From positions 1-64,000 of the forward strand of contig NZ_JAMQBK010000008.1 in the NCBI RefSeq assembly GCF_023701485.1: DNA of 64,000 bases, written 5' to 3'. The stretch comes from Aporhodopirellula aestuarii. GTDB taxonomy: Bacteria > Planctomycetota > Planctomycetia > Pirellulales > Pirellulaceae. Of this stretch, positions 1-63,228 are shown piece after piece. A program made the position numbers and the translations under genes. The notes beneath the pieces are model-generated. The model saw nothing but the letters and a program-made list of their open reading frames with translations. It ran no database searches and was not told the origin of the DNA. Each line of letters begins with the position of its first letter. Positions within the stretch are counted from its first letter, which is position 1.

Positions 1-445
1 GGCCTACAGTTCGCGGCAGTCTCGCCAGATGATTTCTGCATACCTGCTTAGCGGCGCGGCGCCTTTCATGCTTGCCTCCCGGCTGGACCCCTGGGGCGAG
101 CGGGCTGCACAGCGAGAAAGCCTGCAGCCAGACCCGCTGCGAGCTCGGCTCTCCCGAGACCTCCCGATCCGGGGCGAGATGAGAGCCGGTCTCGGAGGGA
201 CGTCGATTGTATTACTGAAGGATTGCAAATGAAGCGGAACGGCGCGAGCCGTCCGGTGACTCGGGACCGGACGGCTTGCGCCGTTCCGCTAAAAAAGGCA
301 CTAAAACAATCGATGTCCCATCGAGCCAATCGAGGCGTTTGCAAAGTCGCACGGCCTCGCAGGGCAGGGGAGTGCGGTTGAGCCCGCTTTCCGCGATCTC
401 GGTAGAGGCGGGCAGAAGTAGGCCAGGGCAGCGGCCCCAGAGCCG
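1..445. other. Left-edge stretch without a convincing gene
   Basis: No reading frame here looks like a protein: the open frames on both strands are short, Arg/Pro/Ser-rich and without recognisable motifs. The only structure seen is the palindromic element at 233-290, listed separately, which is followed by a run of six A. The tail of a gene lying to the left cannot be excluded, but nothing supports it. Confidence 0.5.
233..290. repeat. Inverted-pair palindromic repeat, copy A
   Basis: Two 25-bp arms (233-257 and 266-290) are inverted copies with one mismatch, separated by 8 bp. The left arm begins AGCGGAACGGCGCGAGCCGT. Each arm is itself a small hairpin: at 239-252 ACGGC and GCCGT enclose the loop GCGA. 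The same element recurs at 1519-1594 and 63171-63228, so it is a dispersed family. The layout (two self-complementary units in inverted orientation) resembles REP/BIME elements of other bacteria; that relationship is inferred. Confidence 0.85.
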
Positions 446-1312
446 CTATTCCGGTTGGCGAATCCAGTGCCGAATTCGAGATTGCTGGGCAGTCACCTCA
501 GGCTGTGACTCACGCGGGCGGGCTTCGCTGGCTAATCGCCCTTGCACCGATGTGGGCTGCGGAGCGAACTGAGGCCGGGTTGACGGTGCCGGGGTAGCCA
601 CCGTCGCTGGAGACTCAGACGTGGGGCTGCCGGTGTAAGCCCGCTCGCTCGCGTCGGCAAGAATGGACTGGGGCAGGTCGCTCGCCATTTCCCAAGGGGC
701 GCGACGTTGATTGGCCTGTGGACCCGCGCCAGCGGTGATTCGCATCGCCTCGTATCCCCGCGAGATCGCGTTTGGGTCGGACCCCCGGTTCGCGATCGTA
801 TCGAAAGACGGGTAGGCGGCCGGGGCGTTTCGCTGGGCGCGTGAGTCTTGGTGCGTTGCCAATGCGTCGAATCGGCCGTCAGTGAAATGGGGCGTCGAAA
901 GCGGCACGGCGAGATCGTCGTACGTCAGCGGCACGCGGAGGTCACGACGCGGGCGAGCGACTGCGTCGGACGGGATGCCACGAGGCACATTCGGGGCAAA
1001 CGCCTGCGAGGCCAGCGTCATGGGTTGGTTCGGTTGGCCGTGGTTGTTGGCACTGCCCGGATCGGATTCCGGGTTGACGAACAGTTGCTCGAACGTGATC
1101 GATTCACCCGTGATGGCGAGATCCGATGACGGACCGGTCGCCAGAAGCGAATCGTTGTGTTCGGGGCCGGACTCGACAGGAGCTCGTCGAAAGGGCAGGG
1201 CTGCGACGGTGCCGCCGATGATGATCAGGGCGCCGATAGTGAGATTTCGCACGATAGGGGACTCGTAAGCTGGATGGTGGATGAGACCAGCTTCGTCCTT
1301 GAAACGGCACAT
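446..1312 (-). CDS. Hypothetical membrane-anchored protein
   Basis: The 288-aa protein has a short N-terminal segment followed by one hydrophobic stretch at about residues 23-42 ([18 protein letters not shown]). The remainder is a long hydrophilic, Pro/Ala/Ser/Thr-rich region with no recognised domain. This fits a single-pass membrane protein with a mostly disordered extracytoplasmic part, or an uncleaved signal anchor. The start at 1312 is an ATG with only a weak ribosome-binding site; a GTG about 20 codons downstream, just before the hydrophobic segment, is an alternative. I do not recognise the family. It stands alone, 229 bp after the next minus-strand gene upstream of it in transcription. 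Confidence 0.6.
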
Positions 1313-1425
1313 TTTTTCGCTTCATGCGTGTGCTTGTCTCTCCTTCATCGGCTTCGTCCCCAGCGAAAATCCCGAGATTTTAGTTCCGGCGGCAGAACCC
1401 GGGCATTCGCGAAAGTTGCCGGGTT

Positions 1426-1499
1426 GGGAGTTGGGAGTTGGGAGTTGGGAGTTGGGAGTTGGGAGTTGGGAGTTGGGAGTTGGGAGTTGGGAGTTGGGG
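1426..1499. repeat. Heptanucleotide tandem repeat (GGGAGTT)10
   Basis: Ten perfect copies of GGGAGTT occupy 1426-1495, followed by GGGG. Runs of three G every 7 bp match the G3N4 G-quadruplex pattern, so this strand could fold into several adjacent quadruplexes. It lies upstream of the minus-strand gene 446-1312 and next to palindrome copy B. The same unit in the same orientation recurs eight times at 52599-52654. Heptanucleotide STRR repeats are known from cyanobacteria; any link is only by analogy. Confidence 0.95.
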
Positions 1500-1518
1500 C
1501 AAATCCTGCTGCTTTGTT

Positions 1519-1594
1519 AGCGGTGCGGCGCGAGCCGCCCGGTGAATCGCGAACAACTTACTCGCTGGGACCGGGCGGCTCGCGCCGCTCCGCT
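1519..1594. repeat. Inverted-pair palindromic repeat, copy B
   Basis: Arms 1519-1543 and 1570-1594 are 25-bp inverted copies with one mismatch and a 26-bp spacer. It is the same family as 233-290, but here the inner stem reads GCGGC-GCGA-GCCGC instead of ACGGC-GCGA-GCCGT: the outer pair changed from A:T to G:C on both sides, a compensatory change. It is preceded by TTTGTTAGCGG, a string also seen after each hairpin of the array at 57403-58000. Confidence 0.85.
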
Positions 1595-1710
1595 ATTAAA
1601 GACACCCGGCTCGTGCGGGAGTCGATGGTAACGAGCGGGTGCCACCGCGATCGGCTTGGGGCGATGGGCCGGCTTGCTTGGAGGCGGATTACAGATTCGC
1701 GGCGCCGTGG

Positions 1711-2481
1711 TTAGGCAGCTCGATTGACCTGTTCGGCGGAGAGACTGCCGATCGCTTCGCCGAGTTTGTCGAGCACGATGTCGCGGAGGACCACGGGGCG
1801 GGCCATCCAGGCCCGGTTGAGCACTAGCTCGATGCCGAGGTAGACGTCTTCGGAAAAAATCGCACGCATCGACTTGGTTAATGAATCGTTGGTGCCGCGG
1901 CCGGGATGGTTGCGTCTGACTTTCAGGTCCGGCGCCGTCACGTAAAGTTCTTCCACAAGATCGAGGCACCAGTCCAATTCGTCAGGACGTGCAGGATCGT
2001 ATAGCAATCCGACGTCGCCGCGACGCCAACGCCCCTCGCTGGTCTTGGCGTCGAAGGTTCGCACGGAGAGATGAACGACATAGGTCCAGCTCCTGAGCAG
2101 GTCGAGGATTTGGCGTTCGATCCGGTTCCGATACGGGGTGTAGATCTCTTCGACGATCGCATCCCGCGTCGATTGAGGAAGTGCCCGCGCGGCGGGAGAA
2201 TGCAGTTCGCGGTGATGCAGCGATCGACCGACGTCGATTAAGTCGGCTCGGTATTCGTTGCAGATGATCGTCGCGCCGCTTCGGTAGGCGAGACGTCGGG
2301 CGGCAAGGTTGGATTCTCGGTCGATGCCCGCTCTCGCCAATGGGGCGTGATGGACGGCTCCCGCGACGATCGACTGATCTCGCAGGATGGTTGCCGATTC
2401 GAGTTGGGTACCTTCGAGGCGTGAGCGAAGACGCGACGGGGTTTTCCATCCGCCGGTGTCGCATGTGATCAGCAGGCTCAT
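1711..2481 (-). CDS. N-formylglutamate amidohydrolase-like protein, possibly degenerate
   Basis: The 256-aa protein resembles the N-formylglutamate amidohydrolase (FGase) family, metal-dependent enzymes that release formate from N-formylglutamate in histidine degradation. Seen: an N-terminal [10 protein letters not shown] segment, VVHLSVRTF near the middle, and [10 protein letters not shown], the family's typical DxGLLYDP segment. As I remember the family, the first motif is usually CEHGG and the second SVHSF; here the His residues are Thr and Arg, so metal binding may be altered or lost. The start is set at 2481 because its ATG overlaps the aroA stop as ATGA (2478-2481), implying translational coupling. 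No histidine-utilisation genes are nearby, so the substrate is unknown. Confidence 0.7.
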
Positions 2482-3914
2482 GGTGCACTCGCCCCGCCGG
2501 GCAGGCCGGTCGTCCAAACGTGAGCACGGCCGGTCAAGGATTCGAGGTCAGCCCAAAAGTCCGGGTAGGTCTTGCGGGTGCAGGCGGGGTCAGCGATTTC
2601 GATTCCGGCCAGACGCAGTCCGAGCAGTGCGAAGCTCATGGCCATCCGGTGGTCGTTGTATGTCTCGAATACGACCCCCTGCGGATTGCGGGTGGAGAGC
2701 GTGCCGGATAGATCGCCGAGTGGGTGAATCGTCAGCCCGTCGTCATGCTCGTCGATCCGGCCGCCAAGCTTTCTCAGTTCGATCGCGAGGTTGCCGATCC
2801 GGTCGGTCTCTTTGAATCGGTTGTGGGCGACTCCCCGGACGCGAGTCGGGCCGTCGGCGAAAAGTGCGACAACAGCGAGTGTTTGAACGGTGTCGCTGAT
2901 TTCACCCATCTCGACGTCGATCCCGCGAAGAGGGCCGCCGACGATCTCAATGCCGGTGTCCTGCGCGATGTATTCGCAGCCCATCATCTCGAGCACTCGT
3001 GCGAATTGAACGTCGCCTTGCGAAGCGTTCTCGTCGAGACCTTCGACCAAGACTCGGCCACCCGTGATCGCGGCGGCCGCCCAAAAGTAACTGGCCGCCG
3101 AGGCGTCTGGTTCGACGTCGAATTCGCAGCCATGGAAAGAACCGTCAACGGTGACGCAGCGGAGGTTGCTCCAGGAATCGTCGCCTTCGAATTCCCAATG
3201 CGTTGAGCCGCCGAATGCTTTGATCAGTTGAGCGGTCATCCGCACGTAGGGGACGGAGACCAGTTCACCGATGATTTCGATCCGTACTGGTTTGCCAGCA
3301 ATGGGGCCGGCCATCATCAGGCCGCTGAGGTATTGGCTGCTGACGTCACCGCCGACTCGCATCGGTTGTCCCGTCCAGCCCATCGAATCGATTTCGACGG
3401 GAGGGCATTTTCCGTCCGAAGTGGCGACGATCCATCCGTCCAGAGCCGGAGCGATCGCGTCGACCAAGTCGCCGATCGGCCGTTCGTGCATCCGCTCGGT
3501 GCCCGACAATCGGTATTTGCCACCAAAGGCGGACAGAGCGGCAGTCAAGAATCGGACCGTCGTGCCGCTGTTGGCGATGAACATATCGACGGGCTCATCG
3601 GAGCTGATTTTCCTGGCGTCGTCGCTGACGACTCCGCCGACGCCCTCGACGACGAGCGTCCGGCCGCCGTCAACAGGTTTGATCGAGACGCCGATTTTAG
3701 CCAGCGAGTCGATCATGACTTCGGTGTCTTCGCTGACCAGCGTGCCCGCCAGACGGCTGGTTCCGCTGGCGAAGGCGGCACAGATCAATGCCCGGTTGGT
3801 AAGGCTTTTGCTACCCGGGGGACGCATCTTGCCTTCGACGGGTCCGCCTGGAATGACGCAAATTCTCGTTGTAGGCGAGGCGACGGGTGCATCATTGGCG
3901 GCGGGCTGTGTCAT
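2478..3914 (-). CDS. aroA: 3-phosphoshikimate 1-carboxyvinyltransferase (EPSP synthase)
   Basis: EPSP synthase transfers the enolpyruvyl group of PEP to shikimate 3-phosphate, the sixth step of the shikimate pathway, in the cytoplasm. The 478-aa protein carries the PEP-binding PGSKSLTNRAL motif at about residues 33-43, NSGTTVRFL near 115, SSQYLSGLMMAGP in the middle and ETDRIGNLAIELRKLGG towards the C-terminus, the last including the second active-site loop. It is somewhat longer than the usual ~430-450 residues because of a short N-terminal extension. It appears to be first in a pair with the FGase-like gene (ATGA overlap) and follows a small membrane-protein gene by 3 bp, so all three are probably cotranscribed on the minus strand. 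Confidence 0.97.
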   Translation of the reverse strand: MTQPAANDAPVASPTTRICVIPGGPVEGKMRPPGSKSLTNRALICAAFASGTSRLAGTLVSEDTEVMIDSLAKIGVSIKPVDGGRTLVVEGVGGVVSDDARKISSDEPVDMFIANSGTTVRFLTAALSAFGGKYRLSGTERMHERPIGDLVDAIAPALDGWIVATSDGKCPPVEIDSMGWTGQPMRVGGDVSSQYLSGLMMAGPIAGKPVRIEIIGELVSVPYVRMTAQLIKAFGGSTHWEFEGDDSWSNLRCVTVDGSFHGCEFDVEPDASAASYFWAAAAITGGRVLVEGLDENASQGDVQFARVLEMMGCEYIAQDTGIEIVGGPLRGIDVEMGEISDTVQTLAVVALFADGPTRVRGVAHNRFKETDRIGNLAIELRKLGGRIDEHDDGLTIHPLGDLSGTLSTRNPQGVVFETYNDHRMAMSFALLGLRLAGIEIADPACTRKTYPDFWADLESLTGRAHVWTTGLPGGASAP

Positions 3915-3917
3915 GAT

Positions 3918-4211
3918 TTATCCCGCGAAAAACGGGTCGTTCGATTCGCTAAGTGTTTGTTGGCCAGGGATCCACAACGACCCGACCACCATCAACGACA
4001 AGGTCGTCGTGTGGATCAGCCACGCCGCATTCTGCATCATAACAGTGTGGGCCGTCACGAGCGTCATTACGATCAAAACAGCGAGAAAACGCCGTTCCGC
4101 TTTCCGAGCGGCCATTCCGGTGGTCAACTTCGCCAACATCAGGGCCAGCAGGGCAATGATGGGGAGCCCGAGGGCGCTGAATGCCGACGCGATAAATACG
4201 ATTTGAGCCAT
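3918..4211 (-). CDS. Small hypothetical membrane protein
   Basis: The 97-aa protein has a long hydrophobic segment at residues 1-25 (beginning MAQIVFIASAFSALGLP), a basic stretch (AARKAERR) and two further hydrophobic segments, so it likely spans the membrane two or three times. The ATG at 4211 was chosen over a longer frame because it starts directly at the first hydrophobic segment and has AAGGA about 9 bp upstream. It ends 3 bp before aroA on the same strand and probably leads that transcript. I recognise no family; no link to the shikimate pathway is visible in the protein itself. Confidence 0.65.
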   Translation of the reverse strand: MAQIVFIASAFSALGLPIIALLALMLAKLTTGMAARKAERRFLAVLIVMTLVTAHTVMMQNAAWLIHTTTLSLMVVGSLWIPGQQTLSESNDPFFAG

Positions 4212-4502
4212 TACTTTACATCCTTGTGCTGAGCAGAAAAGACTCGAGCGATCGTGCTCGAGGGTCGGGCGAACGATCCTTGCTGGCCGCGACAATTTCT
4301 TTCTCTCGTATTTTGCCCCCCGCTGGAAAGGTCGAACTTGAGCGAAATTTGAAAAAAAGAGCCAGAAAAATCGATGCGACCGGATTAACCCTCAAATTCT
4401 TCCCATTTTGACTCATCGCCAACGGGATCGATCGCCGAAAAACGAGAAGGATGCGTCGTCTGTCGATTTTGCCTCAAAAATACCAACGTTTTCGGTCCTC
4501 TC

Positions 4503-5033
4503 ATGGCTATTACCCAACTTCGCAACGCTGCCGGTCGCGTTTCGAGCCGGATGATCCCTTCGCGTCATCCGTCGCGACGTGTGAATCTGTGTTTCACCCT
4601 GGTCGCCGTCATCGCGATGCCCTGCGTTTCGCTGGTCGGCGGATGCCGGTTGTGTGCCGATTGCGATTTGGAATCGTATCCTTCGTACGGCGGCGTGTGG
4701 CAGCGGACGTTGCGAGATTCCGGACGCGTCGGCAGTATCTTCGATCCTGGCGGCAGTCGCGCGGCGGACTTGTCTGCACGCGTCGACGCGGACGACGCCG
4801 ATGCGAGAAGACAGCAGGGAATGCGGAGTGGTGGTGACGACGAAATGTCGGACGGCGAAGGTGCCGAACTCAATGATGACGAACGATCGCTTGACGACAG
4901 AGAGATGAACGATTCGGAGCGTCGTGAGCTCGACGAAAATAATCTGAGAGAAATGGAGGATCGATTCCGCGACCTCGATTTGCAAGATATCAACTACCAA
5001 GCTCCCAGCGATGAGTCGCTGGGTTGGGAATAA
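4503..5033 (+). CDS. Hypothetical lipoprotein, acidic
   Basis: The 176-aa protein starts with a basic region, then a hydrophobic segment (about residues 28-47) ending in LVGGC, a lipobox-like sequence, so Cys48 is probably lipidated. The mature part contains CRLCADC immediately after the lipobox and then an extremely acidic, Asp/Glu/Arg-rich helical region of about 100 residues (for example DDREMNDSERRELDENNLR). No domain is recognised. The two extra Cys next to the anchor could form a disulphide. It is a single gene closed by a clear terminator at 5102-5127. Confidence 0.65.
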   Translation: MAITQLRNAAGRVSSRMIPSRHPSRRVNLCFTLVAVIAMPCVSLVGGCRLCADCDLESYPSYGGVWQRTLRDSGRVGSIFDPGGSRAADLSARVDADDADARRQQGMRSGGDDEMSDGEGAELNDDERSLDDREMNDSERRELDENNLREMEDRFRDLDLQDINYQAPSDESLGWE

Positions 5034-5101
5034 CGAGTCGAGGCGGTCAATGCGGTCGCCACGTCGCATTGAAACACCACTCGATCGAATCACTCGATCA
5101 C

Positions 5102-5127
5102 AAACCGGCCGTATGGGCCGGTTTTTT
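5102..5127 (+). terminator. Rho-independent terminator
   Basis: A perfect 9-bp stem (AAACCGGCC at 5102-5110 with GGCCGGTTT at 5116-5124) encloses the loop GTATG and runs into six T (5122-5127). It lies about 70 bp after the stop of the lipoprotein gene ending at 5033. Confidence 0.85.
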
Positions 5128-5339
5128 GATGCGCGGGCCTCTCCCTCCGTCATCGTCCTTGGATGAAAATTCCTTGCGAGTTGCGAAAATTGGGGGAAAC
5201 CGATTTCGATCGCCGAACGCCGTATGGTTTTTCCACCTACAATTGGCGTCGCAGCAACGGCGTGAATTGGTGCTCTCGCGTAACCCGCCCTACGAGAATC
5301 ATGCTTGGGGTGTTATGAAAGTGGCCGTATTACAGTTCA

Positions 5340-6392
5340 TTGCTGGACTGGTCACGCTTCCCCCAAGGCAACCCTCAATTGTTCAAGGTCGATCCGCGCA
5401 AACTCGTCGGGCCCGCGATGGCGCTGGTCCTGTTCGCATTCGCAATCAGGTTGCTGATCAGCGAAGCGGGAAAAATTTCTCGCGAGGAATTCATGGGCGG
5501 CTTGACCAGCATCGAGCCCGCCTACTTGGTGATCGCCGCGTTCTTGATCGCGCTCAACTATGGGCTGTTGACCTGTTACGATCTGCTGGCGCTGCGATAC
5601 GTTTGCCGAGTGTTGCCTCTGCGACGCGTCGCACTGGTCGCGTTTTTGGGCTATTCGCTCGGCAATAATCTCGGCACGTTGATCGCTGCGGCGCCGATTC
5701 GATATCGCTTCTATCATCGTTGGGGACTGACTCACACGCAGATCGTGGCGTTAATGTCAGTGCTCGCGTTGACGTTCTGGTCGGGGGTCTGCGTGCTCGG
5801 TGGTATCGCGTTGACGTTGGCTCCGATCGAGTTGCCGGCCAAATATGCGTTGCCATTTGGAACCAGAACGCTGGGCATCATCCTCTTATCGGTGACGTGT
5901 TTCTATGGGCTGGTATGTTTGTTTTGGCACAAGCCGTGGCCGATCGGAAAGTTGCATTTGCGTCCACCTTCGGTGGGGTTGGCATCGGTGCAGGCTGCGG
6001 TCGCGGCTGTCGATTTGCTGATCTCGGCGACGGCGCTTTATCTGGTCATGCCCGGCTATGCGGTCGTGCCGTTTCCGATGGTGCTCGCGGCGTACCTTGT
6101 GGCTATCGTGGTCTCACTGATCTCTCAAGTGCCCGGTGGTTTGGGCGTGCTTGAACTGATCCTCTGGACATTGCTTAAAGATACAGTTGGGCAACCCGTG
6201 CTCGCGTCGGTGTTGATTTTCCGAATCCTGTACTACATCTTGCCTCTGTTTGTGGGCATGATCGTGTTGGTCGGTCACGAAATTTACGCTGGCGCGATCG
6301 AAGCTCAGACGGATGCCAAGATCGAACGGAGTCGGCCACCCGAACCGCCACGTCCGAAAAATCCTGACCCACCTTTTATAGACGCATCATGA
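5340..6392 (+). CDS. YbhN/UPF0104-type integral membrane protein (LPG synthase TM-domain family)
   Basis: The 350-aa protein has about eight hydrophobic helices and the hallmarks of the lysylphosphatidylglycerol synthase transmembrane family: [27 protein letters not shown] in the middle (conserved N/G/R-rich core) and [14 protein letters not shown] near the C-terminus. In MprF this region flips or organises lipids; here no synthetase domain is attached, so it is a stand-alone membrane protein whose substrate is unknown. The C-terminal tail is Pro-rich and cytoplasmic. The start is uncertain: the frame opens after a stop at 5316-5318 and the first candidate is a TTG at 5340. The stop overlaps the msrB start as ATGA, so the two are translationally coupled. 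Confidence 0.8.
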
Positions 6393-6805
6393 CGCAAGAA
6401 TCCAACAAAGAATCGTCACCCAAGTACAACGAACTCGACGCCAAAGCGGCACGGGTGATCCTGCACAAAGGAACCGAGGCTCCCGGGCCGGGCGGTTACA
6501 CGCTGACGACCGACAGCGGCACGTATATCTGTCGCCGCTGCAACGCGCCGCTTTATCGCAGCGAAGATAAGTTCAACAGTCATTGCGGATGGCCGAGTTT
6601 CGACGACGAAATCGAAGGAGCTGTACGGCGTGAACCCGACGCCGATGGGCGACGGATCGAGATCGTGTGTAACAACTGCGGCGGTCACCTCGGTCACGTG
6701 TTCCACGGCGAACGCCTAACCGAGAAAAACACGCGTCACTGCGTCAACAGCATCTCGATGCGGCTGATCCCCGCCGGCGAACCGTTGCCCGAGAAGATCG
6801 TCTAA
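6389..6805 (+). CDS. msrB: Peptide-methionine (R)-S-oxide reductase
   Basis: MsrB reduces the R-epimer of methionine sulfoxide in proteins. The 138-aa protein is the normal single-domain length. It shows both zinc-binding Cys pairs (CRRC near residue 48 and CNNC near 94), the substrate-binding HCGWPSF motif, GGHLGHVF, and the catalytic Cys in RHCVNS with SISM after it. There is no signal peptide, so it is cytoplasmic. ATG 6389 overlaps the preceding stop by ATGA. Pairing with a YbhN-type membrane protein has no obvious metabolic explanation. Confidence 0.96.
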
Positions 6806-6894
6806 CGCTGCTCCCGAACAAAACGCAGCCGCCAACGCCTAAAATGATTCGAAAAAGGGGCCAGGCATCTGAGCCATGCCAATCGCACTGCGTC

Positions 6895-6929
6895 AGAAGC
6901 TAGAAGCTAGAAGCTAACAGCTAACAGCT
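6895..6929. repeat. Heptanucleotide tandem repeat (AGAAGCT)3(AACAGCT)2
   Basis: Three copies of AGAAGCT (6895-6915) are followed by two of AACAGCT (6916-6929). The unit length is exactly 7 bp, as in the GGGAGTT repeats at 1426 and 52599, but the sequence differs. It fills the convergent space between msrB and the oxidase subunit III gene and abuts the stop codon of the latter. Confidence 0.9.
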
Positions 6930-6932
6930 AAC

Positions 6933-7520: not shown

Positions 7521-7544
7521 TGAAATCTTTGGATCGGTGTGTGT

Positions 7545-12762: not shown

Positions 12763-12795
12763 TCTCGGCCCCTCGAAGTCCCGCCTTGATTGCGG

Positions 12796-14451: not shown

Positions 14452-14482
14452 CTGCGACCTTTCTTGTTCCGAACAGCCCTCT

Positions 14483-21372: not shown

Positions 21373-23184
21373 ATGAAAAGGTTGTGGTTATTGCCCGCCC
21401 TCGCGATCATTGCGATCGTATCGGGCGCCAATGCTGCTCACGCTGCGTATAGCAGCGCGATCAGCTATCAAGGCTGTAGTAGCTGTGGTGGCGGCGGAAC
21501 GGTTGTTAGCGGTGACTCGGTTGTCACAGCAGCTCCCGAAGCCGTCGTTAGCGAAGGTTCAGCTGCCGGCAGCGGATCTTACACCGTGATGCGAACCGTT
21601 CGCGAAACCGTGATGGAGCAAGTCCAAGAGACTCGCACTCGCGTTCGCAACGAAACGTATTACGAAGATCAAGTCGTTAACCGCGTGCGGATGGTTCCTG
21701 AAACTGTTCAACGCGAAGTTCAGTACACGGTCATGGTGCCGACGTACGAAACACGCGAAAAAACGATCAACTACACGGTCAACAAACCTGTGTACGAAAC
21801 TCGCACGCGAGTGATCAATTACACGGTTAAAAAACCAGTGTACGAAACACGTCAAAAGACGATCAACTACACCGTTTGCAAGCCTGTTTACGAACAGCAC
21901 GAACGCGTGATCAACTACACGGTCAAGAAGCCCGTGTATGAGACTCGTCAACGGACGATCAACTACACCGTCAACAAACCAGTGTACGAAACTCGTCAAA
22001 AGACGATCAACTACACCGTGATGGTGCCAGTGTACGAAACACGTACACGCAACATCAACTACACGGTTTACAACACCGTGCGGGAAGAAAAAGTTCGTAC
22101 TGAGAACTACACCGTTCGCGTTCCCCAAACGTACACCAAGACCGTCACGGTCAACGGTGGCCATTGGGACACGGTTACGGAAACCGTTCCTGGTCCGATG
22201 ATTCGTCGTACCGTGCGTGAGCCCGGCACTTCGTACTTCGACCCTGCGACCTGCAAGACCGTGTACTGCCCAGGCAAGTGCCGCGTTGAGTGTGTCCAAG
22301 GTTGCCCAAAGACGATCTGCAAGAAAGTTTGGGTTCCTACCTGTGAGCAAAAAGAAGTTTGCTGCACCAAGTACGTAACGGAATGCCGCACCCGCGAAAT
22401 TCCTTACACCGTGTGCCGTAAGGTTCCTGAGTGCCGCACCAAGGTTTGCGAATACAAAGTTTGCAAGATGGTTCCTGAGTGCCGCACAAAGACCTGCAAC
22501 TACACCGTTTGCAAGATGGTTCCTGAGTGCCACACGAAGGTTTGCGAGTACAAAGTCTGCACGATGGTTTGCGAAAACCGTCAGAAGGTTTGCAAGTACA
22601 CGACCTGCAAGATGGTACCTGAGTGCCGCACGAAGGTCTGCAACTACACCGTCTGCAAGATGGTTTGCGAAAACCGTCAAAAGACTTGCAACTACACCGT
22701 TTGCAAGATGGTTCCTGAATGCCGCACCAAGGTTTGCACCTACAAGGTCTGCAAAATGGTTCCTGAGTGCCGCACCAAGACCGTTTGCCACACCGTGTGC
22801 CGCAAAGAGTGCTACCAAGAAACGATCAAGGTTGCTAAGTGCCGCAAAGTTTGCGAGCCTTACACCGTGACCAAGTGTGTTCCACGAGTAATCTGCCGTC
22901 AAGTTCCTGTCACCGTCTGCTGCCCAGCTCCTTGCTGCAGTGCACCAGCTTGCTGCGAACCTTGCGACACTTGCGGTTCGTCTTCAGACTGTGGCTGCTG
23001 CGATGCAGCTCCAGCTTGCGGATGTGCCGATGCTTGCTGCGAGCCAGCTCCTTGCTGTGCACCTAAGAAGCCATGCTGCCTGAAAGGCTTGTTCGACAAG
23101 CTGTTCAGCAAGCCAGCTGCTTGTGGTTGCGGATGCGAAGTTGTTGAGCCTTGCTGCGACGTTGCACCAGCTTGCGGTTGCTAA
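21373..23184 (+). CDS. YTV-repeat, Cys-rich cell envelope protein
   Basis: The 603-aa protein has a signal peptide (KRLWLLPALAIIAIVSGANAAHA). Two blocks follow, each with an exact 16-residue period. Block 1 (about residues 116-259) repeats INYTVNKPVYETRTRV-like units nine times; it matches the Pfam YTV family described from Rhodopirellula. Block 2 (about 348-475) repeats CKMVPECRTKVCNYTV-like units eight times, with Cys at positions 1, 7 and 12 of most units. The C-terminus has dense CC, CGC and CDC motifs. Extended beta repeats with many Cys suggest a disulphide-crosslinked surface layer, consistent with the protein cell wall of planctomycetes; function in this strain is inferred. A strong terminator follows at 23371. 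Confidence 0.93.
   Translation: MKRLWLLPALAIIAIVSGANAAHAAYSSAISYQGCSSCGGGGTVVSGDSVVTAAPEAVVSEGSAAGSGSYTVMRTVRETVMEQVQETRTRVRNETYYEDQVVNRVRMVPETVQREVQYTVMVPTYETREKTINYTVNKPVYETRTRVINYTVKKPVYETRQKTINYTVCKPVYEQHERVINYTVKKPVYETRQRTINYTVNKPVYETRQKTINYTVMVPVYETRTRNINYTVYNTVREEKVRTENYTVRVPQTYTKTVTVNGGHWDTVTETVPGPMIRRTVREPGTSYFDPATCKTVYCPGKCRVECVQGCPKTICKKVWVPTCEQKEVCCTKYVTECRTREIPYTVCRKVPECRTKVCEYKVCKMVPECRTKTCNYTVCKMVPECHTKVCEYKVCTMVCENRQKVCKYTTCKMVPECRTKVCNYTVCKMVCENRQKTCNYTVCKMVPECRTKVCTYKVCKMVPECRTKTVCHTVCRKECYQETIKVAKCRKVCEPYTVTKCVPRVICRQVPVTVCCPAPCCSAPACCEPCDTCGSSSDCGCCDAAPACGCADACCEPAPCCAPKKPCCLKGLFDKLFSKPAACGCGCEVVEPCCDVAPACGC
21718..22149 (+). repeat. 48-bp tandem repeat, block 1 of the YTV gene
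   Basis: Nine units of exactly 48 bp begin at 21718, 21766, 21814, 21862, 21910, 21958, 22006, 22054 and 22102. They encode 16-residue units with the pattern xNYTVxxPVYETRxxx. The first and last two units are the most diverged. No unit carries a frame change. Confidence 0.95.
22414..22797 (+). repeat. 48-bp tandem repeat, block 2 (Cys-rich) of the YTV gene
   Basis: Eight units of exactly 48 bp start at 22414 and recur at 22462, 22510, 22558, 22606, 22654, 22702 and 22750. Two unit types are mixed: CKMVPECRTK... and CKMVCENRQK.... Same period as block 1, different sequence. Confidence 0.95.
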
Positions 23185-52579: not shown

Positions 52580-52598
52580 GGAATTTTATGGGCGGTAA

Positions 52599-52654
52599 GG
52601 GAGTTGGGAGTTGGGAGTTGGGAGTTGGGAGTTGGGAGTTGGGAGTTGGGAGTT
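52599..52654. repeat. Heptanucleotide tandem repeat (GGGAGTT)8
   Basis: Eight perfect copies of GGGAGTT, same unit and orientation as at 1426-1499. It lies between the BatA-type gene start (52579) and the DUF58 gene's stop (52784), so a transcript crossing from moxR-DUF58 into the rest of the cluster would pass it as its C-rich complement. Confidence 0.95.
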
Positions 52655-55330: not shown

Positions 55331-55490
55331 AATGATCTTGTTGGGGGGCGGAAGGGGGCAGGCTACCGGTTGCCGGCGATTGCGGGGGTGCGGTGGTTTG
55401 TCTCAGCGTTAAACCTTATCCTAGATGGCCCTTTCCGGCGACCTGCGGTTCGCAACGCCGACAAATCTTCTGCAACTCAAACGGATTGCC

Positions 55491-57326: not shown

Positions 57327-57402
57327 TAGGGCGGTGTCGTTTGTGCCTGCCCGGGTAATTGCCTTAGTAGCCAAGTGTCTGTGTTGGTGTTGGTGCGCGA
57401 CT

Positions 57403-58000
57403 AGGCCCGGAGGGCCGATACAACGAATGCCGGTGGCGCGAGCCACCGGTTTTGTTAGCGGGAAATCATTTGAGGCCTGGAGGGCCGGTACAAACTCAGT
57501 TGTGTCGGCCCTTCAGGCCTTGAGTGACTGGAACAGGGCGGTAACCGGGCCTTTGCAGGCCCGGCATTGGTTGTGCCGGCCCGTTGGGCCTTTTGGTGGG
57601 GTGCTACCAGGCCCGGAGGGCCGATACAACGAATGCCGGTGGCGCGAGCCACCGGTTTTGTTAGCGGGAAATTATTTGAGGCCTGAAGGGCCGGTACAAG
57701 CTCAATTGTGTCGGCCCTTCAGGCCTTGAGTGGCTGGAACGTGGTAACCGGGCCTTTTCAGGCCCGGCATTGGTTGTGTCGGCCCGCTGGGCCTTTTGGT
57801 GGCGTGCTACCAGGCCCGGAGGGCCGATACAACGAATGCCGGTGGCGCGAGCCACCGGTTCTGTTAGCGGGAAATCATTTGAGGCCTGAAGGGCCGGTAC
57901 AAACTCAGTTGTGTCGGCCCGCTGGGCCTTTTGGTGGGGTGCTACCAGGCCCGGAGGGCCGATACAACAAATGCCGGTGGTGTTAACCACCGGTTTTGTT
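57403..58000. repeat. ~205-bp structured tandem repeat array
   Basis: Units start at 57403, 57609, 57812 and 57947, at AGGCCCGGAGGGCC. The first two are 206 and 203 bp. The third is 135 bp, missing about 68 bp between two internal TGTGTCGGCCC copies, and the fourth is truncated. Each full unit packs several hairpins, among them CCGGTGGC-GCGA-GCCACCGG, a 21-bp imperfect dyad starting AGGCCTGAAGGGCC (57679 on), and CCGGGCCTTTTCAGGCCCGG. In unit 4 the hairpin reads CCGGTGGT-GTTA-ACCACCGG, a compensated change. The array fills the convergent gap between the radical SAM and secretin genes. Confidence 0.9.
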
Positions 58001-58020
58001 GACGACTGCTTCCCCAGTCA

Positions 58021-58061
58021 ACGAAAAGAACCCTCCACCAGGCGAGCTGATGGAGGGTTCT
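58021..58061 (-). terminator. Rho-independent terminator of the secretin gene
   Basis: On the minus strand AGAACCCTCCA and TGGAGGGTTCT pair perfectly over 11 bp (58061-58051 with 58037-58027, 13-nt loop), followed by TTTTCG. It lies about 35 bp after the secretin stop at 58096. Confidence 0.7.
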
Positions 58062-58095
58062 GATCTTTTGATCGGAAAGCGGTTTGCTTTCGCGG

Positions 58096-61000
58096 TTAGT
58101 TTCTCGGGTCGAAACCGGTTTGAGCGATTTCTTCCTCTTCTTGGATGATGATCCGTGGGGTCACCATCAGCATCAGGCTGGTCGAAGTCCGACCCACACC
58201 GGTGTTTCGGAACAAGCGACTGACGTAAGGGATCTTGCTCAGGAATGGCACGCCGCGTTCGTTGCGACCTTCGCTCATTCGCTTGATACCACCAAGAAGG
58301 ATCGTGCCGCCGTCTGGAACGCTCACGGTCGTGCTGACCGAAGTGGACGCAAACGTTGGTTGCTGAACCGTCGTACCTTGGATGATGTCCTCTTCTTCGT
58401 TCTCATCCTGTTCGTCGATCACACCGTCGCCGTTGGTATCGGTTTCGGTGGTGCTTGAGTTACGCGTCGTGCGACTTCCTTCGTAGGTGAACGTGTTTAC
58501 TTCACCGATCTGGCTGAACGTCGGGACGAGCGTCAAGCGAACGAATCGTTTGTCATCGCTGACAACACCTTGCACGTTCAACCGTGTGCCTTCGTCGAGA
58601 ACGACGATGACGGGTTGTTGGGCGACGGCGAAGTCACCGACGACGGGCACGATACTGGTCACGAATGGACGCGACACGGTGTCGTTGATCGAAGCGATCT
58701 GTCCGTCGAACAGCGTTACCTTCGGTGCCTGCATGATATTGCTACGGTTGTCACCTTGAGCGGCCTGCAAGAAGAAGAACGCTTCGATGTCACTTAAGAT
58801 CGCAAAGCCGATCGTTGAAATCGAACCGGTGTCACCACCGAACGGAGCAACGGCACCGCTGATCGTTTGCTGGTCGAACCGAATGTCGAGGTCAGCGGTC
58901 GGGATGCCTTGGGCGTCCAAACCGATCGTGACGGCAGATCCCGAGTCGTCAGCCGGGATGCTTTGAGCGTTATCATCGAACCGGACGTCGAAGTCGATTC
59001 CGATTTGTTCGAAGAACGTGTCGGCGAGCGTGATGAACCGGACTTCGATCGTGATCTGCAGGTTCTGCAGGCGACGAAGCGATTCGAGCAAGTCGACGAT
59101 TTGGTCGTGCACGTCACTCGTCGTGCTGATAACCAGCGACAAGTTTTGTGGGTAGGGAGCCATCGTTCCAACACCACCGAGGGCTTCCCAGCTGTCGGGC
59201 TCAATGGTTTGTTGAATCAATTGCATCAGCGAGTCGAAGTCAGCCATCGATCCACCACCACGGCCCGATTGGGCCATGCCGGAGGTGCCGAGTCCGCCTG
59301 CGAATCCAGAGCCGCTGCCCATCGGGTTGTATTGTCCGAGCATATTGCGGCCGAGGTTGTTGGCCGCATTGTTTGCCATGCCGCCGCCGAGATCGGTCAT
59401 CGAAACCGGCACAACTTGAACGTCCGTGGTTGGACGAATCATTTGGTAGGCCGACTTCAATGCTCCGGCCAAGCCGTGTTCGTAACCCGAGATGAAGTTC
59501 GGGATCGGAGTCACGAGGTCAGCGACGCGGTACGTTCGTGGGAACGTCATCGTGCGTCGTGCTTCGCGGCTGGTCACGTTGAGCACGTCGTTCTGAAGCA
59601 CGTAGGTCAAGTCGAGGTCTTCGAGCAAGATGTTCAGCGCACTCTTGAGTGGCAAACGACTCGAGATCGATTTCGAGACCGGTGTATCGCGGCTGACGCG
59701 GATCGCTGAGAGGGCACGTTGGTCCAAGACAATTGGCACACCGGTGACGGCGGACAGGTCGTCAAGGACTTCACCGAGCGGGCTGTTGCGATACTTCAAT
59801 TCCACGTCGGTTTCGAGTTTGCGTTTGATTTCCTGTTCGCGGATGCTCAGTCGTGAGTTGCTGTCACGTGAAGCGAGACGACGACGAGAGATGGCTTCCC
59901 AGTCTTTCGGGTCTGCGAATTGGAACGGACGATCCGGATCAGGAGCGACGGCGGTGCGGCCGATGTCGAGCATCGTGCGTGCGAACCCGTTTTCGCTGTC
60001 TGCGCGGATGTCTTCGTCCATTTGCAGGCGAACTTGCGTCCGGCTGTTGTGGAACATCGTCATTGCGATCGTCGAGTCAGGTTTGAGTTCACCAACCTGT
60101 TTGGCGATCACTTCGGCTTCTTGATAGCGTTTTTGATCCATCAGATCGTTGAAGCTGTCAACCAAGAGCGAGATCTCTTGATCGATACGAGCTTCCCGAG
60201 CATCTTCGGTCGACATTTCGGTGCGAATGCGTTCGTTTTCGAGATCGAGGTCGATCTTGGCGCGGTTGGCTTCGACGTAGCGTTGTTGTTCGGCGAGGGC
60301 TCGGCCTACCAACGCTCCCAGAGATGCACGCGAGGCTTCATCGATGTTGGCGCCTTCAACCTTGCGGGCGAGGCGTTCGAGGTCGTTGACAGCTTCGAGT
60401 GGCGCTTCGGTTTTCTTTTCGTTGGCTTTGGCGAGTTCTGAAGTGATCTCGCGGTACAGTCGTTTGACTTGTTGAGCGGCAGCGAGGTCTGCTTTTTCGA
60501 TTGCTGACAACGGCTGAGCAGGATCTTGCGGCATTGGCATCCGAGCGGGTTGCAAAAGCGTCAACTTGTCTTGCAGGGCACGACGGGTGTCGACGGACAT
60601 GTCGGCTTCGAATTCCCAAGCCTTGACGAACTTCGCACGAGCGTCGCTCTGTTTGCCTGCGGAGAGCAGCTGCATACCTTCTTCGAACAGTCGTTCGCCT
60701 TCGGTTTCGGTGGACTGGTTGTCGCCCACGAAGTTCGATGCGGTCGCTTGGACTTGTTGCACGTTCGACGGTCCACCCGGAGTGAACGTTCCGCCAGCTT
60801 GTGAGACTTCCGAATACGAAGGCTGTTGACCGGCTTGACCGATCGGCATCACGCCGTTCGTTTGGGCGATGTTGTTCGGATACGCAATCGGCGTTTGGGC
60901 CAATTGGTTGAGGTCGAGTCCACTACGGCGTGCGACCGACTGGACGTCGAGCAGCAATTGCCAGGGGCGGGCGTCGCCAGGGTTGAATTCATGTTGGGCC

Positions 61001-61506
61001 AAACCGAGGCGTTGGGCCGCGGTGGCGTATTGGTACGCGCCACGAACGTCACCACGATCCAAGGCTGTTCGGCCCATTGCGGTCAGACGCCGGGTTTCTT
61101 GCTGGCGTCGTTCGAGTGGCCACGTTTGTGGATCAACCGGTGCAGTGGGTTGGTTGGTGTCGATCGCGTCGAGCGATGAGGAGACCGGGTTGATCGGGGT
61201 AAGGTTCAGCAGGCTGCCGTCGATCCCGCGGGCGACCAAACGGTCGTAGCGTTGGCGAAGCTCAGGGCTGGACGGTGCGATCTGGTGTGCTGCGCGGTAG
61301 GACTGCACCGCGGAGGTGAATTTTCCTGACGCGACAGCCGCGTCGATGGCTTGCAGGTGCGACGTGATGCTCTTGGCACCGCCATCATTCCCGCTCGGGG
61401 TTCCCGTCGAACCGGGCAGTGTGAACTGGCCAGACGCGGTCGGGGTCAATACGAACAGGCATCCGATCAAGCACAGAGGCATGACCGAACCTTTCGGGAT
61501 AGTCAT
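58096..61506 (-). CDS. Type II/III secretion-type secretin, GspD/PilQ-like
   Basis: The 1136-aa protein has a signal peptide (VMPLCLIGCLFVLTPTASGQ), a long N-terminal half with TPR-like helical regions (AYQYATAAQRLGL, ANRAKIDLDLENERIR and others), secretin N-domains from about 650, and a C-terminal secretin pore with VPDGGTILLGG and GVPFLSKIPYVSRLFRNTGVGRTSTSLMLMVTPRII. Near 1023-1034 an EF-hand-like loop, DTNGDGVIDEQD, is inserted in an acidic segment before the pore's conserved end. Start at 61506 has AAGGAGAT 6 bp upstream, while the frame continues open to 61776. No other secretion genes are near, so it may serve an apparatus encoded elsewhere or be an outer-membrane channel of its own. 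Confidence 0.92.
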   Translation of the reverse strand: MTIPKGSVMPLCLIGCLFVLTPTASGQFTLPGSTGTPSGNDGGAKSITSHLQAIDAAVASGKFTSAVQSYRAAHQIAPSSPELRQRYDRLVARGIDGSLLNLTPINPVSSSLDAIDTNQPTAPVDPQTWPLERRQQETRRLTAMGRTALDRGDVRGAYQYATAAQRLGLAQHEFNPGDARPWQLLLDVQSVARRSGLDLNQLAQTPIAYPNNIAQTNGVMPIGQAGQQPSYSEVSQAGGTFTPGGPSNVQQVQATASNFVGDNQSTETEGERLFEEGMQLLSAGKQSDARAKFVKAWEFEADMSVDTRRALQDKLTLLQPARMPMPQDPAQPLSAIEKADLAAAQQVKRLYREITSELAKANEKKTEAPLEAVNDLERLARKVEGANIDEASRASLGALVGRALAEQQRYVEANRAKIDLDLENERIRTEMSTEDAREARIDQEISLLVDSFNDLMDQKRYQEAEVIAKQVGELKPDSTIAMTMFHNSRTQVRLQMDEDIRADSENGFARTMLDIGRTAVAPDPDRPFQFADPKDWEAISRRRLASRDSNSRLSIREQEIKRKLETDVELKYRNSPLGEVLDDLSAVTGVPIVLDQRALSAIRVSRDTPVSKSISSRLPLKSALNILLEDLDLTYVLQNDVLNVTSREARRTMTFPRTYRVADLVTPIPNFISGYEHGLAGALKSAYQMIRPTTDVQVVPVSMTDLGGGMANNAANNLGRNMLGQYNPMGSGSGFAGGLGTSGMAQSGRGGGSMADFDSLMQLIQQTIEPDSWEALGGVGTMAPYPQNLSLVISTTSDVHDQIVDLLESLRRLQNLQITIEVRFITLADTFFEQIGIDFDVRFDDNAQSIPADDSGSAVTIGLDAQGIPTADLDIRFDQQTISGAVAPFGGDTGSISTIGFAILSDIEAFFFLQAAQGDNRSNIMQAPKVTLFDGQIASINDTVSRPFVTSIVPVVGDFAVAQQPVIVVLDEGTRLNVQGVVSDDKRFVRLTLVPTFSQIGEVNTFTYEGSRTTRNSSTTETDTNGDGVIDEQDENEEEDIIQGTTVQQPTFASTSVSTTVSVPDGGTILLGGIKRMSEGRNERGVPFLSKIPYVSRLFRNTGVGRTSTSLMLMVTPRIIIQEEEEIAQTGFDPRN

Positions 61507-62074
61507 ACGCGATCTCCTTGGCGGATGTGGTTTTGAGGTCGGACAATGCCGAGCTATCTCACCGGGGTCGATGGTACGGTCGACACCTTGCCGCTCGCGG
61601 TGAGTGGTAAGGTTGGGTTCGACACAAGATGAACTCTTCTGCCTTGACGGCTTATTCGAGCGGTTCAACGCGACTCTCCTTCTTCGCGGTGAGACATTGG
61701 ACAAATTTCGGAAAGCTCTCGAATCAGCTCGAAATCCTTTCGAGGCGATACGGAAACCTTCCGAGTGGTCTGGCAATACGAACTGATCGCTTGCGGAGTC
61801 AAGCCGGTTTTAGGTGTTTTTTATATAGCGAATTCTTCAAAGATTGACTCAAGTCACCGTTTTTGCCGGCGAAAACAGGCGAATCGAATGACGCCTCCGG
61901 TCCCCCGCTGGCAGGCCAGCGACAAAGGATCAGAAAAAAAGTGGAAAAAAAGTTTTTGGGACGCGGAAGATGGTCGGGCAATCCGAGTGCGATCGGGCGG
62001 GGGTGAAAGCCATCTCTCAGAAAGTCGCTCGGTCGGGTAGAATCGAGGCTTCGAAAACAATTGGAAAGCGTGTG
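61507..62074. other. Divergent intergenic region of the secretin and aspartoacylase-type genes
   Basis: 568 bp with no convincing gene; open frames extending both neighbours upstream are not protein-like. A candidate promoter is listed at 61823-61852. No repeats were seen. Confidence 0.45.
61823..61852 (-). promoter_or_regulatory. Candidate promoter of the secretin gene
   Basis: On the minus strand TTGAGT (61852-61847) and CTATAT (61828-61823) are separated by 18 bp, a plausible sigma70 pair, giving a leader of about 310 nt. Both hexamers differ from consensus at two or more positions. Confidence 0.3.
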
Positions 62075-63136
62075 ATGAAAGACTGGAAGACACAGACTTG
62101 GTTTGGGCACGACGTTGACGCCGGTACCCATCGGAACACCGAACTCGAGATCACCGAAAGCTACAGCGGTCGGAATATCACCATTCCCATTCGCGTGATA
62201 CGTGGTGTTGAGCCTGGACCCACGGTGTTCGTGACGGGGGCTCTCCACGGCGATGAACTCAATGGAACCGGAGCGATTCGGTCCCTGCTCGCCAATCCCG
62301 AATGGGGGCCGGTTCGGGGAAATGTGTTGGCGGTTCCGGTCTTGAATATCCTCGGATTTGAGCGACATTCCCGCTACCTCCCCGACCGCCGCGATCTCAA
62401 TCGTTGCTTCCCCGGAAACGCGTCGGGCAGCATGGCGACGCGGATGGCGAAAGTGATCTTCGACGCCATCGTGTTGCAGTCGGACTATGGGATCGATTTG
62501 CACACCGCTGCGGTGCGGCGGACCAACTACCCCAACGTCCGCTGCGATTTCAAAAATCAAGCATGCAAACGACTTGCCACGGCATTTGGTGCCGGAGTGG
62601 TTCTCGACGGCCGTGGACCCAAAGGTGCCTTCCGACGGGAAGCGACCGCGGCCGGATGCCCAACGATTGTGGTCGAAGGTGGCGAAGTTTGGAAAGTCGA
62701 GCCGTCCGTACTCGAATGCATGACCCGTGGGGTCGTGAACGTGCTGAAGGAACTCGACATGATGGATGGTGAACCGGAATTGCCGGAACATCAGGTTATG
62801 CTGCGACAAACCAAATGGGTGCGTGCCGAACGAGGCGGGTTCATGGACATGCATGTGTCACCGGGTTCCACCGTCGTCGCCGGGCAACCGCTCGCCACCA
62901 ACAGCAGTCTCGTTCATGAAGAGCACAACCGATTGGAGGCCCCCTTTGATGGCATCGTGATCGGCATGAGCACGTTGCCCGCCGTTCAACCCGGCGAACC
63001 CGTGATCCATCTCGGAAAACTGTCTAGCCCGCGCCGAGCGAAGTTCGTTGAAAAGCATACGCAGGCCGACGACATGCAACGAACCACTCAGGAACACTTG
63101 TCAACAAACATCCAAGTAACCGAACCGATGGACTGA
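62075..63136 (+). CDS. Succinylglutamate desuccinylase/aspartoacylase family metalloenzyme
   Basis: The 353-aa protein shows the M14-like zinc site of the AstE/AspA family: GALHGDELNG (H-x-x-E ligands), a DRRDLNRCFPG segment and a DLHTA motif with the third ligand, plus Glu in VVEGGEVWK near the active site. A biotinyl-lipoyl-like C-terminal beta domain (PGSTVVAGQPLATNSS...; APFDGIVIGMSTLPAVQPGEPV) is typical of the longer members. It hydrolyses an N-acyl or peptide bond of an amino acid; the substrate is unknown. ATG 62075 was chosen because GGAAAG lies 8 bp upstream and homology to the family begins right after it. Confidence 0.9.
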   Translation: MKDWKTQTWFGHDVDAGTHRNTELEITESYSGRNITIPIRVIRGVEPGPTVFVTGALHGDELNGTGAIRSLLANPEWGPVRGNVLAVPVLNILGFERHSRYLPDRRDLNRCFPGNASGSMATRMAKVIFDAIVLQSDYGIDLHTAAVRRTNYPNVRCDFKNQACKRLATAFGAGVVLDGRGPKGAFRREATAAGCPTIVVEGGEVWKVEPSVLECMTRGVVNVLKELDMMDGEPELPEHQVMLRQTKWVRAERGGFMDMHVSPGSTVVAGQPLATNSSLVHEEHNRLEAPFDGIVIGMSTLPAVQPGEPVIHLGKLSSPRRAKFVEKHTQADDMQRTTQEHLSTNIQVTEPMD

Positions 63137-63170
63137 GTGAGGTTAGTCGAGCCGTTTCGTTGATCTTTCT

Positions 63171-63228
63171 AGCGGAACGGCGCAAGCCGTCCAGTGTCGG
63201 GTTACCGGACGGCTCGCGCCGTTCCGCT
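63171..63228. repeat. Inverted-pair palindromic repeat, copy C
   Basis: Arms 63171-63195 and 63204-63228 are inverted 25-bp copies with two mismatches and 8 bp between, as in copy A. The left arm contains ACGGC-GCAA-GCCGT, so the tetraloop changed from GCGA to GCAA, another GNRA-type loop; the two arm mismatches are of the G/A type. Confidence 0.85.

Follow-up and report, generated by a model that had tools for sequence, protein, structure and literature searches.

Hairpin doublets of a REP type in Aporhodopirellula aestuarii, probably orphan partners of a class 3 single-tyrosine transposase found in its relatives

Three inverted hairpin pairs in the 64,000-nucleotide stretch of Aporhodopirellula aestuarii DNA analysed here (the window) belong to a much larger family, which numbers several hundred hairpins. 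We interpret these hairpins, with a probability of about 0.8, as REPs paired in inverted orientation (REPINs), which are non-autonomous and have a class 3 RAYT (an HUH single-tyrosine transposase) as their partner; the copies in A. aestuarii itself are probably orphans. The family is abundant, its hairpin structure is conserved, its doublets nearly always lie outside long open reading frames (ORFs), and in relatives the RAYT genes flanked by the same arms are co-inherited with loop type. It falls among the known REP/REPIN systems, with a peculiar variant in this genome.

The earlier note on this DNA had placed inverted-pair copies at 233-290, 1519-1594 and 63171-63228, and all three were confirmed at those positions. 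Searching the window with a 22-nt arm pattern at ≤3 mismatches recovered six places, which are exactly the six arms of these copies, each with 0 mismatches (shuffled control: mean 0.23, maximum 2). With DNA parameters, the predicted fold is a single long hairpin for every doublet (z −8.7 to −10.6) and a small hairpin for each arm taken alone (z −2.0 to −2.9). The differences claimed between copies were also borne out: the stem is GCGGC/GCCGC in 1519-1594 versus ACGGC/GCCGT in the other two, and the loops are GCGA or GCAA. The features are listed below, each arm being supported by both pattern search and folding.

233..257, + strand: REP arm of copy 1, loop GCGA, stem ACGGC/GCCGT
266..290, − strand: REP arm of copy 1, partner of 233-257, loop GCAA, stem ACGGC/GCCGT
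1519..1543, + strand: REP arm of copy 2 (54-nt doublet), loop GCGA, stem GCGGC/GCCGC
1570..1594, − strand: REP arm of copy 2, partner, loop GCGA, stem GCGGC/GCCGC
63171..63195, + strand: REP arm of copy 3, loop GCAA, stem ACGGC/GCCGT
63204..63228, − strand: REP arm of copy 3, partner, loop GCGA, stem ACGGC/GCCGT
197..319, + strand: copy 1, the complete palindromic element of ~123 bp, GGGACGTCGATT ... ATGTCCC, built around the REP doublet
63141..63262, − strand: copy 3, the ~123-bp element with its probable limits (end at 63243-63262 clear; end near 63141 decayed and placed by eye)

The ~123-bp element around copy 1, and in part around copy 3, had been missed by the earlier note. Copy 2 is a different type of doublet (54-nt spacing), without the ends of that element.

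Across the 9.07-Mb genome, 636 arms (317+319) were found at ≤2 mismatches, compared with 4 (2+2) for a reversed-pattern control, and a 24-nt form of the arm gave 377 exact matches against 0 in its control. Each arm is a hairpin of ~24 nt that has a GCRA loop and a single unpaired base, and inverted doublets are frequent: 32 pairs were spaced at 36 nt, 9 pairs, in the opposite arrangement, at 31 nt, and 4 pairs at 54 nt, while 37/145 arms had no partner within 120 nt. ORFs of ≥300 aa (crude ORFs, called without annotation) contained 6/145 arms while covering 74% of the sample. When sites were picked by nothing but their foot and the ends of their loop, 279 of the 316 had Watson-Crick pairing at each of the four free stem positions, and stem covariation lay above every one of 500 shuffles, which upholds the claim of structural selection on each hairpin; a permuted-anchor control returned 0 sites and hence informs on anchor specificity only. 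The third loop base was a purine in 309/316 of these arms, and the foot was CGGA in 187, CGGC in 86 and CGGT in 43. The check proposed in the earlier note, on excess of copies and on covariation, was thus run, and both many copies and significant covariation were found.

Intergenic location, strong folding, covarying stems and the purine at the third loop base would also fit arms selected as RNA, that is, transcript-end hairpins that stabilise or terminate mRNA and are spread by recombination. We consider this very improbable. The arms are linked to, and co-inherited with, a transposase; copy number is patchy between close relatives; the element consensus has no T-run after the hairpin on either strand (poly-A follows on one strand); and an Rfam search of the 64-kb window gave 0 matches at gathering score. 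On any single strand of a doublet, one arm displays the complement of a GNRA loop. Moreover, a sister RAYT clade is paired with REPs whose loop is GCTA, which breaks the GNRA rule. The RNA reading, and with it the words ‘probably as RNA’ in the earlier note, is unsupported. The same structural constraint is explained by a transposase whose relatives bind hairpins of single-stranded DNA (ssDNA), and the reading of the arms as mobile ssDNA hairpins is supported.

That the family is a REP/BIME-like mobile repeat, as had also been proposed, is supported by its copy number, its placement outside long ORFs, its doublets and the empty sites found within the genome, and chiefly by a flanking, co-inherited RAYT. 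The RAYT gene whose presence had been suggested exists in relatives, where it is flanked by the same arms, but was not found in A. aestuarii. Its Pfam score is low (25.2 bits, cut-off 23), which is why it was missed among 30 Y1_Tnp loci (of 115 matches in 12 other genomes), none of which had arms at ≤3 mismatches; it was located through 20 further fetched neighbourhoods. At ≥60% RAYT identity, 15 of 16 fetched loci carried arms at ≤2 mismatches, and the sixteenth (G086) had variant arms at 3, whereas GCRA arms at ≤2 mismatches were present in 0/14 more distant RAYT loci. Among named genomes, a set that overlaps in part with the fetched loci, arms lay ≤500 bp from the RAYT in 12/13 cases at ≥60% identity, 1/5 at 50–59% and 2/62 below 50%. 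Mapped onto a tree of 67 selected RAYTs, the loop type of the REPs (GCRA, GCTA or none) required 3 changes, compared with 25.8 when shuffled; the GCTA-loop group formed a single clade (support 99/94), sister to the GCRA-loop clade. The 17 genomes that contain a close RAYT had a median of 79 arms and 224 others a median of 3, a comparison that ignores kinship, and four of the 17 had few arms (7 to 13). Raw arm counts across genomes mix two families, G079 and G193 being of the GCTA kind with 0 exact GCRA arms; G155 has 107 arms and a RAYT that is only 46% identical, with no arms adjoining it. It is very probable that the class 3 RAYT spreads these hairpins in the relatives.

Judged by the features (HUH, W[TA], Y----Q) that Quentin et al. 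2018 (PMC6006769) give for their ‘class 3’, the relatives' RAYT appears to fit there. In an alignment of 24 rows, N86, H87 and H89 (NHxH), Y154 and Q159 were invariant, with WT or WA after W132/W133 in most rows, and the 30 best PDB matches to the predicted fold were IS200/IS605-type transposases or TnpA_REP (4er8). The parts of that paper available to us describe class 3 TnpA_Y1 ‘REPtron-like’ genes in Planctomycetes, of ~178 aa, with high-copy, atypical flanking hairpins whose foot is CnGA, and present class 3 single-tyrosine transposases as possible intermediates between insertion sequences (ISs) and REP systems, for which experiment is needed. The system seen here is alike in its planctomycete hosts, protein length (~178 aa), NH-x-H, W followed by T/A, Y----Q and hairpin-flanked genes. 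The foot agrees with CnGA in the 187/316 arms that have CGGA, but departs from it in the 129/316 that have CGGC or CGGT. The main text of the paper does not name Rhodopirellula or Pirellula, and, as far as its available parts go, the loop-specific RAYT clades (GCRA and GCTA) are an addition to the class 3 account.

By analogy with in vitro reports on TnpA_REP, movement might proceed as follows. At a single-stranded stage, for example on the lagging-strand template, each arm would fold, exposing the unpaired base and the GCRA loop; the RAYT would recognise foot, stem and loop, cut beside the hairpin, and then move or copy the doublet. The GCRA-loop and GCTA-loop RAYT clades are natural matched pairs of enzyme and hairpin, and recognition of the loop is therefore testable by loop swaps.

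Protein and profile searches of the A. aestuarii genome (a 165-contig assembly) found no class 3 RAYT (0/74 candidates at E ≤ 1), and for this reason its copies are probably orphan. In the G150 genome the RAYT neighbours a gene that is presumably a heavy-metal ATPase; the two best matches to that gene in A. aestuarii, looked at as a possible empty locus, adjoin neither arms nor a RAYT. Other genomes rich in GCRA arms are also without a close RAYT: G209 (499 exact arms), G211 (564), G212 (813) and G106 (149), of which G209 is one contig, its best RAYT match reaching only 23.8 bits. These genomes, like the failure to find a class 3 RAYT in A. aestuarii, the low arm numbers of some close-RAYT genomes, the case of G155 and the minority share of the GTAG tag, count against the RAYT-partner interpretation. 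Hundreds of orphan copies without a close RAYT, including those of a single-contig genome, bear on how long repeats of this sort can last in the absence of their transposase. Those of A. aestuarii were probably inherited and have since become orphans, part of them having been amplified as the ~123-bp element with its extra inverted ends.

The same genome has four Y1_Tnp genes (three IS200-like, and one 340-aa REP_Tyr-like), and its repeats could instead be moved in trans by one of these, as might be suggested by a Y1_Tnp gene of G055 that is, by eye, like the fourth and has a REP doublet of the same family ~210 bp away. This is improbable: the flanks of the four genes, covered to 1.5 kb each way except for one flank of the fourth (128 bp), had 0 arms at ≤4 mismatches, on which ground all four were rejected as partners; the fourth protein falls under its NCBIfam cut-off (61.6 vs 80 bits); and none of the 30 Y1_Tnp loci fetched from other genomes had arms at ≤3 mismatches.

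Many REP pairs of A. aestuarii form the core of the ~123-bp palindromic element, whose inverted ends, although imperfect, are conserved across many copies; within the genus, the element is full length in this genome only. It sits at the apex of other palindromes, of several kinds, and matched empty target sites occur within the same genome. Most of its joins have 2–3 extra bases, which could represent either a duplication or misplaced ends, and there is no clear target duplication. The apex insertions suggest that hairpins formed in the cell serve as targets. The maintenance of the ends, the confinement to one genome of the genus, the choice of palindrome apices and the absence of a class 3 RAYT would be consistent with the ~123-bp element being a MITE, related to a DDE transposon with specificity for GGGACGTYGATT ends, that carries the REP doublet as cargo. 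In that case a RAYT would remain the source of the REP family, but not of its amplification in A. aestuarii. REP loops of this genome also harbour another palindromic insert, whose end (GGGCTGTTGATTTAGTG) is somewhat similar, and G206 has an IS, which we take to be IS1182-like, within a REP hairpin; the ends of this IS are similar too, and it carries a 617-aa ORF. We regard the MITE as possible but doubtful, since no larger element with such ends was recognised in an unsystematic comparison of 85 end-like sites from a 1.25-Mb sample, the extra bases at the joins are ambiguous as target duplications, and a search of A. aestuarii for the G206-type transposase, rejected as a candidate here, gave only a 27-bit fragment. 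It is unlikely, in our estimate, that a REPIN itself became the core of a RAYT-independent ~123-bp palindromic element that targets hairpin apices and so nests palindromes, the cognate RAYT having been lost.

Compared with other systems, as described in the available parts of the papers cited, the family as a whole, read as RAYT-partnered REPINs, has both familiar and unusual features. Like the REPINs of Bertels and Rainey 2011 (PMC3116915), it consists of inverted, spaced REP doublets that are extragenic, number hundreds of copies, are linked to a RAYT and occur in tandem clusters; unlike them, its conserved unit extends in many copies ~30 nt past the REPs on each side and has inverted-repeat ends, and the assembly that holds it is without the cognate RAYT. 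For E. coli TnpA_REP, the loop or the bulge is reported to be recognised, and enzymes and REPs to have co-evolved in pairs (PMC8266576). The present system resembles E. coli REP/BIME in its unpaired base within the hairpin and in the predicted RAYT fold, which matches 4er8, but its enzyme is of another class, its enzyme–hairpin pair is a computational prediction, and the GTAG tag is not general. A 5′ foot tag of GTAG (or CGTC) is likewise no general property of the stem-anchored arms of A. aestuarii, GTAG being in the minority; in 81 such arms the letters preceding AGCGG included AGT (12), TGT (7) and CGT (3). REP dimers within longer palindromes are also described from A. variabilis, T. roseum and H. 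neapolitanus, and empty target palindromes from T. roseum (PMC3733652). In A. aestuarii, by contrast, what is inserted is the 123-bp element with the REP dimer inside it, and several kinds of target palindrome, together with matched empty sites, are found in one genome.

All three inverted doublets described in the earlier note, at 233-290, 1519-1594 and 63171-63228 (copies 1 to 3), are present in the window. Each consists of two ~24-nt REP arms in inverted orientation (a REPIN), and the arm pattern used for searches, AGCGGNNCGGCGCNAGCCGNCC, gave six matches in the window at ≤3 mismatches, all of them exact, compared with a mean of 0.23 in shuffled sequence. On folding, every doublet forms a single long hairpin and every arm alone a small one. 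The copies are placed between likely genes; two of four adjoining ORFs tested with Pfam were recognised (FGase, AstE_AspA_cat).

In the own genome, an assembly of 9.07 Mb in 165 contigs, 317 + 319 arms occur at ≤2 mismatches, against 2 + 2 for the reversed pattern. At this threshold 179/241 genomes of the family Pirellulaceae (G-numbers below) showed a match, many of the low counts being at or under the reversed-control level, and only 36 held ≥40 arms. Counts in the ten top genomes were 909, 752, 694, 685, 636 (own), 617, 598, 567, 327 and 311, and those in the 12 remaining members of the genus 94, 73, 63, 47, 9, 107, 12, 5, 2, 6, 2 and 109; such unevenness among close relatives is consistent with mobile repeats. 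At 2 mismatches AGCGGNNCGGCGCNAGCCGNCC also picks up a sister family with loop GCTA. The exact GCRA form (loop GCAA or GCGA), AGCGGNNNGGCGCRAGCCNNCCGG, counted in 11 genomes, occurred 377 times in the own genome, 589 in G206, 499 in G209, 564 in G211, 813 in G212, 601 in G162, 149 in G106, 201 in G014, 45 in G055 and 0 in G193 and G079, and its reversed control 0 times in 11/11.

Within a 1.25-Mb sample (1.19 Mb in addition to the window), holding 145 arms at ≤3 mismatches, the commonest doublet was an inverted pair spaced 36 nt start to start (n = 32), followed by a 31-nt spacing in the opposite arrangement (n = 9) and a 54-nt spacing (n = 4, including copy 2). Pairing was scored at 316 sites, each in a different context and together representing 54 distinct arms. 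They were drawn from the sample plus other loci, part of the latter fetched via the arm pattern. Only the foot, the loop ends and CCGG served as selection criteria; this anchoring fixes four of the eight stem pairs, which are therefore invariant. All four free pairs were Watson-Crick at 279/316 sites, three at 31, and fewer at 6; loops were GCAA at 167 sites, GCGA at 138 and others at 11. The covariation proposed in the earlier note was borne out in two measures: among the 54 distinct arms, 31 cells had both sides changed (shuffled 10.6, sd 2.4), and covariation scored 0.214 (shuffled 0.090), each value reached by 0/500 shuffles. Three pairs showed any two-sided change, a number not above that in shuffles (159/500). 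These comparisons support selection on hairpin structure, short of proof because related copies inflate such scores. Doublets in G206, and beside the RAYT (transposase) gene of G162, regularly have unlike stems, ACGGC/GCCGT in one arm and AGGGC/GCCCT in the other; each hairpin therefore keeps its own pairing.

Among Y1_Tnp matches of high-copy genomes, 0/30 fetched loci (of 115) had arms at ≤3 mismatches. Twenty further neighbourhoods yielded one RAYT locus, in G206, where an ORF of 175 aa has 4 arms near its left side and 14 on its right (≤3 mismatches). This RAYT scored 25.2 bits with Y1_Tnp and 20.9, against a cut-off of 55, with the NCBIfam model for IS200; REP_Tyr_transpos gave no match at E≤1. 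N86-H87-x-H89, Y154 and Q159 are invariant in a 24-row alignment, and the 30 best PDB matches of an AlphaFold model (mean pLDDT 84) were ISDra2, IS608, other IS200-type transposases and TnpA_REP 4er8. The RAYT of relatives fits the description of class 3 in PMC6006769.

Relatives of the G206 RAYT occur in 101/241 family genomes, the best match having ≥60% identity in 17 (two partial). Loci were obtained for 16 of these 17, and arms were present at ≤2 mismatches in 15, with variant arms at 3 in G086; 14 other RAYT loci (identity ≤53%) had GCRA arms at ≤2 mismatches in no case and GCTA-loop arms in one, G156. In named genomes, scanned for the best 80 of 234 RAYT relatives, arms lay within 500 bp in 12/13 at ≥60% identity (many of these 13 being genomes already counted in the family survey), 1/5 at 50–59% and 2/62 below 50%, both of the last in GCTA-type neighbourhoods. 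In a maximum-likelihood tree of 67 RAYT rows, a chosen set from the family and named loci, a single clade (99/94) comprises the 11 GCTA-flanked rows. Two changes account for the 18 GCRA-flanked rows, and 3 for the loop labels as a whole, versus 25.8 shuffled. Median arm counts were 79 in the 17 close-RAYT genomes and 3 in the 224 others (raw medians, uncorrected for kinship); four of the 17 hold 7 to 13 arms only.

The RAYT/TnpA_REP gene that the earlier note proposed to seek was thus found beside arms in relatives and not in the own genome, where a protein search gave no RAYT relative at E≤1e-5 and the RAYT profile 0/74 candidates at E≤1. Across the genus the profile had members at E≤1 in 12/13 genomes, G158 reaching no better than 0.08. 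A RAYT gene surrounded by repeats may be absent from the 165-contig assembly. Orphan REP populations do occur, since G209, a single contig with 499 exact arms, has only a 23.8-bit RAYT match.

In G014 (fetched loci L210/L267) the RAYT match is split into two parts, separated by REP arms, in a frame without a stop; apparently a REP doublet has inserted into the gene for its own transposase. G055 (L342, contig C44) has a class-3 RAYT remnant with stops, N-terminal pieces of which recur at ~1-kb steps, and no GCRA arms adjoin it. In G206 an insertion sequence at L193:54-2045, presumably IS1182-like and carrying a 617-aa ORF, lies within a REP hairpin, with GCAAGC on either side.

Aligned 36-nt pairs with their flanks are conserved past the arms, from GGGACGTYGATT to RAYGTCCC, in a palindromic 123-bp element (copy 1, ~197-319). 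A query of window 198-325, for which 40 of 388 candidates were scored, had at least 88 matches in the own genome. Of these, ~40 were almost full length, at 89–100% identity; among the matches listed for other members of the genus, mainly the REP core was covered, at most query 16-109. For 11 of the sample's 30 near-full-length copies, the two flanks put together align over their junction with another place in the sample, in one case with a gap of 24 nt. These empty sites are, on inspection, mostly centres of other palindromes, for example CTCGGTCTC-GAGACCGAG. Flank-to-flank complementarity scored ≥6 in 16/30 copies (the window copy only 4), versus 12% of re-paired flanks and 10% of random positions, and the observed mean was reached by 0/400 re-pairings. 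A common offset was seen in 13 of the 16, which are not all independent because five lie within one host repeat. REP dimers within palindromes were already noted in three other bacteria (PMC3733652). At C46:2247 of the own genome (L105) a copy has both outer ends without the REP doublet; it may be the product of a deletion or of an excision, or else the empty outer shell.

The arms are abundant, with conserved hairpins, doublets outside long ORFs and empty sites, and they are linked to and co-inherited with a transposase that has the fold expected of such an enzyme. By analogy with TnpA_REP (PMC8266576), the RAYT would recognise foot, unpaired base and loop on single-stranded DNA, and would cleave and move the doublet. 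The 123-bp unit, a local variant worth closer study, may have been moved by the RAYT or by another enzyme. In the main texts of open-access literature on Rhodopirellula and planctomycete palindromic repeats, searched also with the arm letters, no description of the GCRA family was found.

Other repeats in the window.
63322-63379, a further inverted repeat, 23-nt arms, 100% complementary, GTAG-tagged, GTAGTGGTGGCTTCCAGCCGCCA
57334-58000, direct repeats of ~203-206 bp built from hairpin units GGCCCGGAGGGCC and GGTGGCGCGAGCCACC
1424-1498 and 52586-52654, tandem heptamer GGGAGTT, two places 51 kb apart
21697-22857, 48-bp tandem repeats within long ORFs

The repeat at 63322-63379 is probably a second REP family, GTAGTGGTGGCTTCCAGCCGCCA giving 10 matches at ≤4 mismatches in the 1.25-Mb sample versus 0 for the reversed control; the unit at 57334-58000 gave 8 at ≤5 mismatches. 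The 21697-22857 repeats apparently encode a repetitive protein, and the GGGAGTT tract at 1424-1498 lies immediately upstream of copy 2. Elsewhere in the own genome (L011-L014 and C75:57632-58001), lone REP arms stand in tandem with periods of ~116-119 bp.
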